Source: Microvirga sp. ACRRW (GTDB taxonomy: Bacteria; Pseudomonadota; Alphaproteobacteria; Rhizobiales; Beijerinckiaceae). Taken from it: a stretch of DNA of 64,000 bases. The translations under genes and the position numbers were made by a program. Shown here piece after piece: positions 10,800-13,704 of the stretch (position 1 is its first letter; each line of letters starts with the position of its first letter). The stretch is taken from contig NZ_JAKRNJ010000001.1 in assembly GCF_022346925.1 (NCBI RefSeq), forward strand, positions 1 to 64,000, in the 5' to 3' direction. The notes beneath the pieces are model-generated. The model was not told where the DNA came from, did not search any database, and saw only the letters and a list, made by a program, of their open reading frames with translations.

Positions 10800-12137
10800 T
10801 TACTCCTCGGGCGCTTCGACGATAGGATCGTACTGGCTCGTATCGAAGCCGAGCAGGTTGAAGCTCTGCTGCATGTGCGGCGGCAGCGGCGCGGTTACAT
10901 CGATGGGCTTGCCCGTGCGCGGATGCGCGATCACGATGCGTCGTGCGAGCAGATGCAGCTTGTTCTGGATGCCGCCCGGCAATTCCCAGTTCTCGATGTC
11001 GAAATACTTGGGATCGCCCACGATCGGATGCCCGATATGCGCCGTGTGTGCGCGCAGCTGGTGCGTGCGTCCGGTCACCGGCTTCAGCGACAGCCACGCG
11101 AGCTTATGTGCCGCCGTGTCGATGATGGCGTAATAGGTCAGCGCGTGGCTTGCCCCCTCATCGCCGTGGCGCGCAACGCGCATGCGGGAATCACCCTCGT
11201 CGCCTTCCTTGGCGAGATAGGTCGAAACGCGGCCTTGGCGCACGCGCGGCACGCCAGCGACCAACGCCCAATAGATCTTGCGTGTGGTGCGTGCACGGAA
11301 AGACTTCGCCATGGTGGACGCGGCGAAGCGCGTCTTGGCGATGACGAGACAGCCCGCCGTGTCCTTGTCGAGGCGATGCACGAGGCGCGGCTTCTGCCCT
11401 TCCGCATCGCGCATGCATTCAAGCAGGCCATCCACGTGACGCGTGGTGCCCGAGCCGCCCTGCACCGCAAGCCCCATCGGCTTGTTGATGATGAGAACGT
11501 CCTTGTCCTCATAGAGCGTGATGGACTTCAGGAATTCGAGATCGCCCTGGTCCTTCGCGCTGTTGCGCGAAACCGGACGCGGCTGGTCGAGCTTCAGCGG
11601 CGGAATACGCACTTTCTGCCCGGCGGTGAGCCGCTCGTTGGGCTGCGCCCGCTTTCCGTCGACACGCAACTCGCCCTTGCGGACGATGCGCTGGATATGC
11701 GTGAAGGCGAGTTGCGGGGAGCGCGCGACCAGGAAGCGGTCGACGCGCATATCCGCCTCATCGGGCTCGACCACGAGCGTCTGCACGCCCGTCGCCAGAA
11801 CCTCCTGAGCCTCGGCCCTAGCCTGAGCCCGCGTGGGCTTTTGCGGAGCCTCCGCCGCGGGGCGCGACGGGGTCTTGGTCGCAGGCCTCTCGCGACGTGC
11901 CTCTACAGCTCGTGCCGGTGCCTTGGCGCTTTGGCGCTCGCGCCGCGCCTCCTCGGGGCGGCCCTTAGCTGCCGGCTTGGCGCTGCGCGGCTTCGCCGAC
12001 GCACTCTTCGAAGGCCCCTTGGAAGCCGCCTTTGGAGGCCCCTTGCGGGCAGGCCTGTCCTCGCGCGAGCGGAAGCCCTGCCGCGCGCCAGACCGCCCGC
12101 CTCGGGCTCCATTCTGTCCTGAATTACTTTTTCTCAT
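10800..12137 (-). CDS. rluC: 23S rRNA pseudouridine synthase RluC-type, with long basic N-terminal tail
   Basis: A 445-residue RluA-family pseudouridine synthase. Residues about 1-115 are an Arg/Lys/Ala/Pro-rich disordered tail. An S4 RNA-binding domain follows (about 128-175, 'RVDRFLVARSPQLAFTHIQR') and then the catalytic domain with Asp257 in 'RLVHRLDKDTAG'. 'KPVTGRTHQLRAH' and 'HPIVGDPKYF' are the other family signatures. RluC modifies three uridines of 23S rRNA in E. coli. The catalytic half has normal family length; the tail explains the extra size. The start (ATG at 12137) is uncertain because no clear ribosome site precedes it and another start lies at 12173. Confidence 0.9.
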   Translation of the reverse strand: MRKSNSGQNGARGGRSGARQGFRSREDRPARKGPPKAASKGPSKSASAKPRSAKPAAKGRPEEARRERQSAKAPARAVEARRERPATKTPSRPAAEAPQKPTRAQARAEAQEVLATGVQTLVVEPDEADMRVDRFLVARSPQLAFTHIQRIVRKGELRVDGKRAQPNERLTAGQKVRIPPLKLDQPRPVSRNSAKDQGDLEFLKSITLYEDKDVLIINKPMGLAVQGGSGTTRHVDGLLECMRDAEGQKPRLVHRLDKDTAGCLVIAKTRFAASTMAKSFRARTTRKIYWALVAGVPRVRQGRVSTYLAKEGDEGDSRMRVARHGDEGASHALTYYAIIDTAAHKLAWLSLKPVTGRTHQLRAHTAHIGHPIVGDPKYFDIENWELPGGIQNKLHLLARRIVIAHPRTGKPIDVTAPLPPHMQQSFNLLGFDTSQYDPIVEAPEE

Positions 12138-12225
12138 GAGATCGTGGGTACCAGAGCGCCGCCTTGGCGGCAATCGAAGCTAAAAGGGCAGCATTCAAAA
12201 AATCCTTGCTCCCATGACCTACGGA

Positions 12226-12249
12226 CAACTGACACAACGCTGTCAGTTG
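12226..12249. promoter_or_regulatory. candidate operator palindrome for the YafY-type regulator
   Basis: CAACTGACA (12226-12234) and TGTCAGTTG (12241-12249) form a perfect 9-bp inverted repeat with a 6-base centre. It stands 49 bases before the start of the two-gene unit that ends in a YafY/WYL regulator, and 89 bases before the divergent rluC start. TGACA-x6-TGTCA dyads fit the kind of site such regulators use for autoregulation. Confidence 0.65.
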
Positions 12250-12297
12250 GCTAATCCTATGGGTGCAGGCCTCAGCAACCTGCACAAGGATCCTTCC

Positions 12298-12600
12298 ATG
12301 AAATCCCACGTCCTCGAAACCGTGACCTTTTCGCTCCAGCCCGGAACTGACGAGGCAGCTTTTATCCGCGCCGCCAATGACGCCAGCAACGTGGTAAAGG
12401 CCATGCCAGGCTTTATCCGCAGGCGGCTAGCGAAGGGACAAGACGGCAACTGGATCGATGTCTGCGAGTGGGCCGACGATGCCAGCGCCCAAAAGGCCGC
12501 TGAGACATTTCATACGATTCCAGCCGCACAGCCCTTCTGCGGCATGATCGATATGACCTCGGCGAAGATGGCTCATCACACCATCGCTCATTCCAGCTAA
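12298..12600 (+). CDS. small dimeric alpha/beta-barrel protein, monooxygenase-like
   Basis: A 100-residue protein whose pattern 'VLETVTFSLQPGTDEAAFIRAA', 'MPGFIRRRLAKGQDGNWIDVCEW' (in parts) and 'AQKAAETFHTIPAAQPF' matches the antibiotic-biosynthesis-monooxygenase/EthD ferredoxin-like barrel. The ATG at 12298 has AAGGA 7 bases upstream. It is followed after 3 bases by the YafY regulator, so the two are co-transcribed and the protein is likely under that regulator. No cofactor motif is visible. Whether it is an enzyme or a ligand-binding partner is open. Confidence 0.75.
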   Translation: MKSHVLETVTFSLQPGTDEAAFIRAANDASNVVKAMPGFIRRRLAKGQDGNWIDVCEWADDASAQKAAETFHTIPAAQPFCGMIDMTSAKMAHHTIAHSS

Positions 12601-12603
12601 GCC

Positions 12604-13305
12604 ATGCGGCGCGCGGACCGGCTCTTCGATATCGTACAGATGCTCCGGGGCGGACGGCTTCGGACAGCCCATGACATCGCCGAGCAGCTCGAAGTATCGG
12701 TCCGCACCATTTATCGTGACATCGACGCCCTTATCGCCTCGGGGGTTCCCATCGAAGGCGAGAGAGGCATTGGTTACGTCCTTCGAGGAGCGATGCTGCT
12801 CCCCCCTCTCTCTTTCTCCGTCCCGGAGCTCCAGGCCCTCGCATTGGGCGCGAAGCTTGTTAAGGCTTGGGCTGACAAAGAGCTGGCGCAAGCGGCAGAA
12901 GAGGTTCTTGCTAAGGTCGACGCCGTGATCGGAAACGACCGGAGGATCGAGCTTCAACGCCAGGATCTGCGTGCCTTCGGCCTGCACTTGAAGGATAGCG
13001 AGCGTGAGCGTCTGGCACTCATCCGGCACGCCTTACGGACGCGACATAAGATCGGATTGAATTATGCAGATGCTATGGGCGAGGCATCGGACAGGACCGT
13101 GAGGCCTTTAGGCCTAGAAGCATGGGGCCACGCCTGGACACTGACCGCATGGTGCGAGTTGCGTCAGGATTTTCGGGCTTTTCGCCTGGACCGGATGCTG
13201 TCGGTTGATGTGTTGGGCGACATCTTCAAGCCCGAGCCAGGGCGGACACTTCAGGACTACTTGGAGCGTCTGCGCGAGGAAGGATGGGATGTAGAGCCTC
13301 ATTGA
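12604..13305 (+). CDS. YafY-type helix-turn-helix regulator with WYL domain
   Basis: A 233-residue regulator. An N-terminal HTH_11 domain (about 1-60: 'RRADRLFDIVQMLR', 'TAHDIAEQLEVSVRTIYRDIDAL', in parts) is followed by 'SGVPIEGERGIGYVLRG' and a C-terminal WYL effector-binding domain ('VRPLGLEAWGHAWTLTAWC', 'DFRAFRLDRM'). WYL regulators of this size usually control one neighbouring gene and themselves. It follows the monooxygenase-like gene by 3 bases. The palindrome at 12226-12249 is its most likely binding site. The ligand is unknown. Confidence 0.88.
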   Translation: MRRADRLFDIVQMLRGGRLRTAHDIAEQLEVSVRTIYRDIDALIASGVPIEGERGIGYVLRGAMLLPPLSFSVPELQALALGAKLVKAWADKELAQAAEEVLAKVDAVIGNDRRIELQRQDLRAFGLHLKDSERERLALIRHALRTRHKIGLNYADAMGEASDRTVRPLGLEAWGHAWTLTAWCELRQDFRAFRLDRMLSVDVLGDIFKPEPGRTLQDYLERLREEGWDVEPH

Positions 13306-13317
13306 GCAGACATGAGG

Positions 13318-13704
13318 CTATCCGGCCAATTGTCTCACTAGCATCAAACCGGCAACCAAGCCTGCGATGGAGAGAAGCACGGAAACCGTCACATAGCCGA
13401 GCGCCTCCCCCATCTGCCCTCGCTCCCACAACAGCACTGCATCGAGGGAGAACGCCGAGAAGGTCGTGAAGCCGCCGAGGATCCCTGTGGTCAGAAAGAG
13501 GCGCAGGGGCTGGCTCCATCCCTCGCCTGCCTTGAAGGCCAGCCATCCGGCGAGCGCGCCCATAAGGAAGGAGCCCACGATGTTCACCATCAGGGTGCCA
13601 TAGGGCAACGCCGTGCCGCAGTAGCGCGCACAACCGACATTCACGCCATGACGAAGCGCTCCGCCAATTCCGGCACCGAGGAATACGATAAGATAGGCCT
13701 TCAT
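13318..13704 (-). CDS. crcB: fluoride-specific ion channel CrcB (Fluc)
   Basis: A 128-residue membrane protein with four helices that forms a dual-topology dimer exporting fluoride. Signatures are 'GIGGALRHGV' near 12-20, 'GTLMVNIVGSF' in helix 2 and 'GILGGFTTFSAF' in helix 3, which holds the phenylalanine box and sodium site. It starts 3 bases after the rarA stop, so it is the last gene of the htrA-GNAT-rarA-crcB unit. I saw no fluoride riboswitch upstream, as expected inside an operon. Confidence 0.95.
   Translation of the reverse strand: MKAYLIVFLGAGIGGALRHGVNVGCARYCGTALPYGTLMVNIVGSFLMGALAGWLAFKAGEGWSQPLRLFLTTGILGGFTTFSAFSLDAVLLWERGQMGEALGYVTVSVLLSIAGLVAGLMLVRQLAG

Follow-up and report, generated by a model that had tools for sequence, protein, structure and literature searches.

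A putative operator conserved upstream of short WYL regulators of the YafY type

A perfect 24-bp dyad with the core TGACA-N6-TGTCA lies upstream of a two-gene unit in the 64-kb stretch of DNA analysed here (the window, taken at its full length), and it is very probably the autoregulatory operator for the WYL regulator that the second of these genes encodes. Comparisons of related loci indicate that the motif and its spacing follow a subclade of regulators with a [V/L/I]-P wing, which ranges over alpha- and gammaproteobacteria and appears once in Myxococcota. The features of the locus are the following:

10800..12137, minus strand: divergent pseudouridine synthase of the RluA/RluC family, ATG at 12137; a neighbour, not claimed as a target
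12138..12297, no strand: intergenic region between the rluC-like gene and ORF A, containing the putative operator and presumably the promoter
12226..12249, no strand: putative operator of 24 bp, perfect 9-bp arms CAACTGACA and TGTCAGTTG, 6-nt spacer
12298..12600, plus strand: ORF A, the first gene of the unit, 100 aa, with a predicted ferredoxin fold of ABM type; the related locus L004 supports its start
12604..13305, plus strand: short wHTH-WYL regulator ('YafY family'), 233 aa; HTH_11 at residues 6-58, WYL at residues 137-203

The dyad reads CAACTGACA-CAACGC-TGTCAGTTG; its arms (12226-12234 and 12241-12249) are 100% complementary, its core occupies 12230-12245, and it is non-coding, 48 bases 5' of ORF A. 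The preliminary description of this DNA had reported a perfect TGACA-x6-TGTCA dyad at this place, as well as a 100-residue gene followed by a WYL regulator, and all of these elements are present, the regulator gene starting 3 bases past the end of ORF A. It had also called the dyad the only strong one between the rluC-like gene and ORF A, which agrees with its being the sole perfect 9-bp repeat (spacers of 0-20) in 12139-12297. With TTG at 12173 as its start, the RluA/RluC-family gene has its longest frame. The closest relative (L004) has a regulator 78% identical and an ORF A 80% identical, and it retains the 24 bases of the dyad save for one spacer change. A reading of the dyad as coding, from an alternative ATG at 12214, was rejected: that upstream start is unsupported because the L004 frame has a stop inside the dyad (by eye, on the alignment) and yet keeps the dyad. 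Among the 36 other genomes of the genus that were searched, the source of L004 alone has a best regulator match above 47% identity, so the cassette of ORF A and regulator is patchily distributed.

Taken alone, the dyad is not above chance for a 64-kb stretch with 62% G+C. Seven perfect 9-bp dyads with an N6 spacer, and 44 with spacers of 0-20, are present in the window, and TGACA-N6-TGTCA with at most two mismatches is not commoner than expected (8 occurrences vs a mean of 15.3 in shuffles). The exact core is present in a single copy in the 3.94-Mb genome, which makes the regulon look local and fits the 'regulon of two genes' proposed earlier. Rfam returned four tRNAs at gathering scores in the window and no match near the dyad; neither a sigma-70-like hexamer pair nor a terminator-like site was found in 12000-13400. 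The arms resemble TTGACA, but a reading as overlapping divergent -35 elements was discarded, as the 58 aligned sites described below show no clear -10 properly spaced beyond the other arm.

The evidence for an operator comes from the relatives of the regulator. The first 110 loci (30, including that of the window, plus 80) were chosen by protein similarity alone. Within 600 bp upstream of these regulators, the best N6 site has no mismatch in 68 cases, a single one in 22, two in 5 and three or four in 15, while one letter-shuffled copy of each upstream region (n = 110) yielded no exact and a single one-mismatch N6 site. Spacers of 3, 4, 5, 7, 8 and 9 gave 0, 0, 2, 0, 1 and 1 exact sites in the same loci; spacer 5 is slightly above background, with 2 exact and 9 one-mismatch sites of 110, against 1 one-mismatch site in the shuffle. 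The addition of 29 further homologue loci and 13 plasmid loci resulted in a set of 152 regulators, 125 of which carry the core in the 800 bp upstream, intact (101) or with a single mismatch (24). The genes adjoining these dyad-bearing regulators vary. The set holds near copies, and a cut at 85% identity leaves 84 rows, 65 with the dyad and 19 without; on a FastTree tree of these rows, the dyad state changes 10 times vs 17.2 when shuffled, which shows that kinship inflates the counts. The dyad accompanies 125 of the 137 regulators with an x[VLI]P wing and none of the 14 with a GA wing (Fisher 5e-13), a difference that was first spotted on the 110 loci and then counted in a set containing them. 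The single regulator with a GVE wing is without the dyad, and GA-wing and x[VLI]P-wing proteins alike have the same recognition-helix motif. Two (L060, L063) of the 12 x[VLI]P-wing regulators without a site of at most one mismatch in 800 bp have an exact one 1.2 kb upstream.

The conservation of the dyad upstream of orthologous pairs had been put forward as a check of the operator, and such conservation is observed, beyond the related regulators just counted, at the orthologous pairs themselves. Of 150 genomes of the order, 15 (own included) have relatives of ORF A, at 16 places altogether, and the succession of dyad, ORF A homologue and WYL gene recurs at L004, L033, L115, L117, L118 (whose regulator runs off the contig) and L132. 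In the more distant pairs at L123, L124, L125 and L126 the homologues of ORF A and regulator are divergent, without the exact dyad. L116, L119, L120, L121 and L129 have an ORF A homologue and no regulator within the stretch examined, L120 with a one-mismatch site about 50 bases 5' of that homologue; L128 has the regulator and no ORF A match on re-search, and L122 and L127 have neither match in the stretch examined.

The alignment of 58 non-redundant sites informs on the flanks. These sites were selected with at most one core mismatch, which makes core conservation a matter of construction, while the flanks are unselected: C is found at -4 in 49 and at -1 in 44, and G at +16 in 54 and at +19 in 53. 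The spacer varies among them. Further upstream, T-A-T-A at -16 to -13 is matched in 29, 31, 37 and 35 of the 58 sites.

Searches with the DNA pattern alone lead back to the same regulators. CWWCTGACAN6TGTCAGWWG has 7 sites in 6 of 289 genomes of the class, own included, and CWMCTGACAN6TGTCAGKWG has sites in 36 of 398 genomes of the phylum; the reversed-pattern control gave 0 matches in both sets (289 and 398 genomes). A regulator homologue at E<=1e-30 is encoded in 119 of the 398 phylum genomes, namely in 35 of the 36 with the pattern vs 84 of the 362 without it (Fisher 2e-19, inflated by related genomes with several per genus). The only pattern-bearing genome without such a homologue is G515; its site (L171), apparently inside a P-type ATPase-like frame (by eye), was taken as chance. 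In a subset of sites, mostly one per genome (L130-L163), a WYL homologue lies within 1.5 kb at 27 of 34 pattern loci; of the seven without, L141 and L162 have one about 1.6 kb from the site. Twenty further site regions, which overlap in part with the earlier sites, comprise 11 with a WYL homologue and 9 without.

The genes nearest to sample sites belong, according to Pfam, to LysE, glyoxalase, TatA_B_E, UvrB, DNA_alkylation, GFA, RidA-type, GST and ArsR-type families. A 135-residue protein without a Pfam match (L140:1038-1442, minus strand) recurs beside the dyad in g65 loci. Genome G440 carries two solitary 24-bp sites (L131/L164 and L135/L165), before genes for a GFA-family protein and a DNA-alkylation-repair HEAT protein, and tblastn found no WYL homologue in the 8 kb analysed around each. 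Tandem or overlapping copies of the dyad occur at L006, L009 and L153, at distances of 33, 34 and 18 bp, and g65 loci such as L138, L142 and L143 contain paired sites separated by about 340 to 990 bp.

The 13 plasmid loci were picked among 40 listed of 837 records. The dyad beside the YafY gene is exact in 8 of them, has one mismatch in 2 (Terrarubrum, Sulfitobacter) and is absent from 3 (Pantoea, Azospirillum, Vibrio). With the exact dyad, the adjacent gene encodes a VOC/glyoxalase protein in Sandaracinus (Myxococcota), an Erythrobacteraceae bacterium, Klebsiella, Enterobacter and Komagataeibacter, LysE in Sinorhizobium meliloti, a DMT transporter in Agrobacterium rubi and a GST in Novosphingobium. 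The Klebsiella and Enterobacter loci (L187, L188) read secF - VOC - YafY - tsx with the exact dyad 5' of the VOC gene, an arrangement that is the enterobacterial version of the circuit.

The regulator matches HTH_11 with 63.8 bits (cut-off 25) and the WYL family PF13280 with 69.5 bits (cut-off 21.8). Its model (pLDDT 89.7) has an N-terminal winged HTH of helices and two strands at residues 3-60. The C-terminal WCX domain is absent: the chain ends at 233 and, past the strand that ends at 207, the model shows one helix (216-225). An NCBIfam search found no model above cut-off, and the name 'YafY family' comes from annotated plasmid relatives of about 40-50% identity. The best solved relatives of the model are PafBC and DriD, with poor whole-chain superposition in Foldseek (rmsd 8-13 for the ten best matches). 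In the recognition helix, R34 and R38 are invariant in the regulator alignments and the motif R-[TS]-x-[YWFH]-R-D is found in 152 of 152 regulators; the equivalent arginine pair of PafB is required for function, according to PMC6789036. The regulator's R191-x-F193-R194 aligns with R-x-F-R of the PafBC beta4/beta5 ligand loop, whose arginines and F are described as essential in the same article, and a pattern for this loop matches 124 of the 152 relatives. Several of the tatA-linked Rhodobacteraceae regulators (L039, L041, L042, L074, L080) are without the first loop arginine, at position 191; since it has been lost, their WYL ligand may differ. The TatA gene next to these regulators is perhaps a bystander.

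ORF A had been described as a monooxygenase, a name that stands for the fold and not for the profile score. Its Pfam ABM match (19.5 bits) is below the gathering cut-off of 23.1, and an ABM match at E<=1 is found in 10 of the 13 members of its alignment (A2). Its monomer model (pLDDT 95.3) has the ferredoxin-like fold of dimeric alpha/beta barrels and has SnoaB as its best Foldseek match (TM 0.76, E 1.4e-6), so that, as far as the model goes, ORF A is ABM-like and 'monooxygenase' is meant as fold only. The cofactor-independent monooxygenases SnoaB and ActVA-Orf6 share this fold with ORF A and are themselves weak profile matches, but are only about 16% identical to it.

In the mechanism that we propose, a homodimer of the regulator would read the two TGTCAG half-sites, one wHTH each, probably contacting each half-site through R34 and R38, and the bound regulator would control its own operon of ORF A and regulator. 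Binding, dimerisation, co-transcription and repression are what we infer from the comparisons. If the dyad is the operator, repression is a likely outcome, because many relatives have a TATA-like element whose end is about 12 bases upstream of the core, so that the operator would cover the transcription start; in the window itself the sign of regulation is a guess, because no clear promoter was found there. A ligand of the WYL domain would then trigger release (or activation). By analogy, a nucleic-acid damage signal is plausible, because PafBC and DriD sense single-stranded DNA and the PafBC loop residues are kept; SiwR (PMC10693628) is a further analogue. Alternatively, the ligand could conceivably be a small compound on which the ABM-like enzyme acts.

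Several other explanations of the dyad may be considered. Its perfect arms could pair as an RNA hairpin, an attenuator or stability element in the 5' leader, and the site does lie in the likely leader in many relatives. Since the core served to select the sites, its letters carry no weight in this question. Of 142 unique exact 24-mers, 68 have two matching flanks, a share above the 22% that independently drawn halves would give, as a hairpin would have it, although shared ancestry of the halves could also explain this excess. In the other 74 the flanks do not pair, and yet each half mostly keeps one of the allowed forms, among them CTCC, CAAC, CTAC and CTGC, which are also the usual half-site flanks overall. 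Moreover, several sites lie between divergent genes and 12000-13400 is without a terminator-like site, so that a hairpin is very improbable. The shape of the operator, as judged from these alignments, fits a protein dimer on two half-sites better.

A protein other than the neighbouring regulator could also bind there, that is, an unlinked regulator controlling many YafY genes. The solitary sites without a nearby WYL gene, such as those before the GFA and DNA-alkylation-repair genes of G440, would be explained in this way. Nevertheless, nearly all the pattern-bearing phylum genomes (35/36) encode the homologue, the site is missing at the GA-wing subclade of the same family, and the genes beside the site vary, except for the regulator, which renders an unlinked protein improbable. 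It is harder to set aside, while still unlikely, that the regulator is an activator and the site an activating element, in the manner of DriD and PafBC. These activators are the nearest structures and, according to PMC12340889, the DriD target has a similar core (GACA-N5-TGTC in the oligonucleotide). Against this, the relatives' TATA-like element is upstream of the site, while DriD sites are described in that same article as overlapping the -35 element; the window regulator is without the WCX domain; and BrxR, also a WYL protein, represses (PMC9122601). Finally, the seven perfect N6 dyads of the window could suggest that this one is a functionless chance repeat, but its core and flanks match the family form, it sits before the operon and it is kept in L004, and chance is hardly credible. 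The autoregulatory operator is the reading that we retain.

Sites with the same core are also found upstream of uvrB. Of 30 genomes, the majority picked for their pattern or for a close regulator, 13 have the exact core ahead of uvrB and 2 (G663, G207) have it there with one mismatch; 5 of the 13 exact sites (L137, L174, L178, L180, L183) had already been found by the pattern search. From family f24, one genome per genus was drawn regardless of the dyad, and 11 of the 28 new uvrB upstream regions in this sample contain the exact core; G105 and G059, already seen, were left out, and one genome yielded no match. The core was found in 0 of 29 uvrB loci of family f74 and in 0 of 1140 shuffles. Within f24 the site is present in 10 of 10 genomes with a g65-type regulator orthologue vs 1 of 18 without (G832), with a Fisher value (8e-7) that shared ancestry makes too optimistic and an orthologue line (E<=1e-80) drawn after the values had been seen. 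The loci with the exact core 5' of uvrB (L226, L227, L233, L237, L240, L241, L243-L247, L251, L252, L258-L262, L269-L273 and L283) belong to two alphaproteobacterial families. The genome's own uvrB (L249) has no site upstream. A simple search for a LexA-type GAAC-N7-GTTC box found none in the upstream regions with a uvrB site and none in 17 others, which says little.

From these observations a wider picture can be tentatively drawn, as a possibility that we hold with somewhat less than even confidence. The short VP-wing YafY/WYL regulators of Pseudomonadota would share a single operator (C-W-N-C-TGACA-N6-TGTCA-G-N-W-G) and constitute a stress system apart from SOS, in which a WYL sensor controls small detoxifying enzymes (glyoxalase/VOC, GFA, GST, ABM, RidA, LysE export) and, in one clade, uvrB, linking nucleotide excision repair to the clearance of reactive compounds. 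The dyad, the regulator and the uvrB sites point to a little-studied stress-control circuit, and the uvrB sites make the unexpected prediction that nucleotide excision repair is under WYL control in some alphaproteobacteria. If the operator is what it seems, a single, highly specific 24-bp sequence would mark a whole subclade of short WYL regulators, many anonymous 'YafY family' genes would become regulators with predictable targets, and the operator would be a ready probe for the ligand of short WYL regulators.

Almost every bacterial taxon has WYL regulators (PMC6789036), and further comparison literature comprises PMC9122589, PMC8223512 and PMC11804915. In searches of open-access papers, no description of this operator was recognisable by title or abstract, and the motif strings were without a match. 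BrxR, DriD, SiwR and PafBC are other, mostly longer WYL members with described sites. SiwR of Mycobacterium smegmatis is a WYL regulator beside small-enzyme genes, some actinobacterial loci having a glyoxalase-like gene, and its site is a 19-bp imperfect palindrome; it differs in being an activator of DinB-superfamily genes. BrxR, from phage-defence islands, has inverted or pseudo-palindromic repeats with short spacers before its own operon, as here, whereas its WCX domain and defence targets set it apart; because of its different sequence (e.g. ATACCGTAAAAATAATTTACTGTAT) and 5-nt spacer, a reading of the dyad as the same operator was rejected. CapW is also a WYL regulator of phage-defence islands.

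The actinobacterial PafBC is the best sequence and fold match to the regulator, with which it shares two recognition-helix arginines four apart and the R, R and F of the beta4/beta5 loop. Yet PafBC is a heterodimer, or one fused chain in Arthrobacter, in contrast to the one short gene found here, and its promoter motif is non-palindromic, as opposed to the present perfect palindrome, and it acts through RNA polymerase adaptation. The PafBC RecA-NDp motif has a TGTC-type consensus, on which nothing here rests. DriD, a WYL protein of Caulobacter crescentus that activates a DNA damage response outside SOS and is the second group in the fold search, combines the same wHTH and WYL domains with a pseudo-palindromic site that has a GAC...GTC core, as here. 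The DriD consensus is ATACGAC-N7-GTCGTAT, vs TGACA-N6-TGTCA with flanks such as CAAC or CTCC for the operator proposed here, and DriD is an activator of about 330 residues with a WCX domain, compared to the 233 residues of the present regulator.
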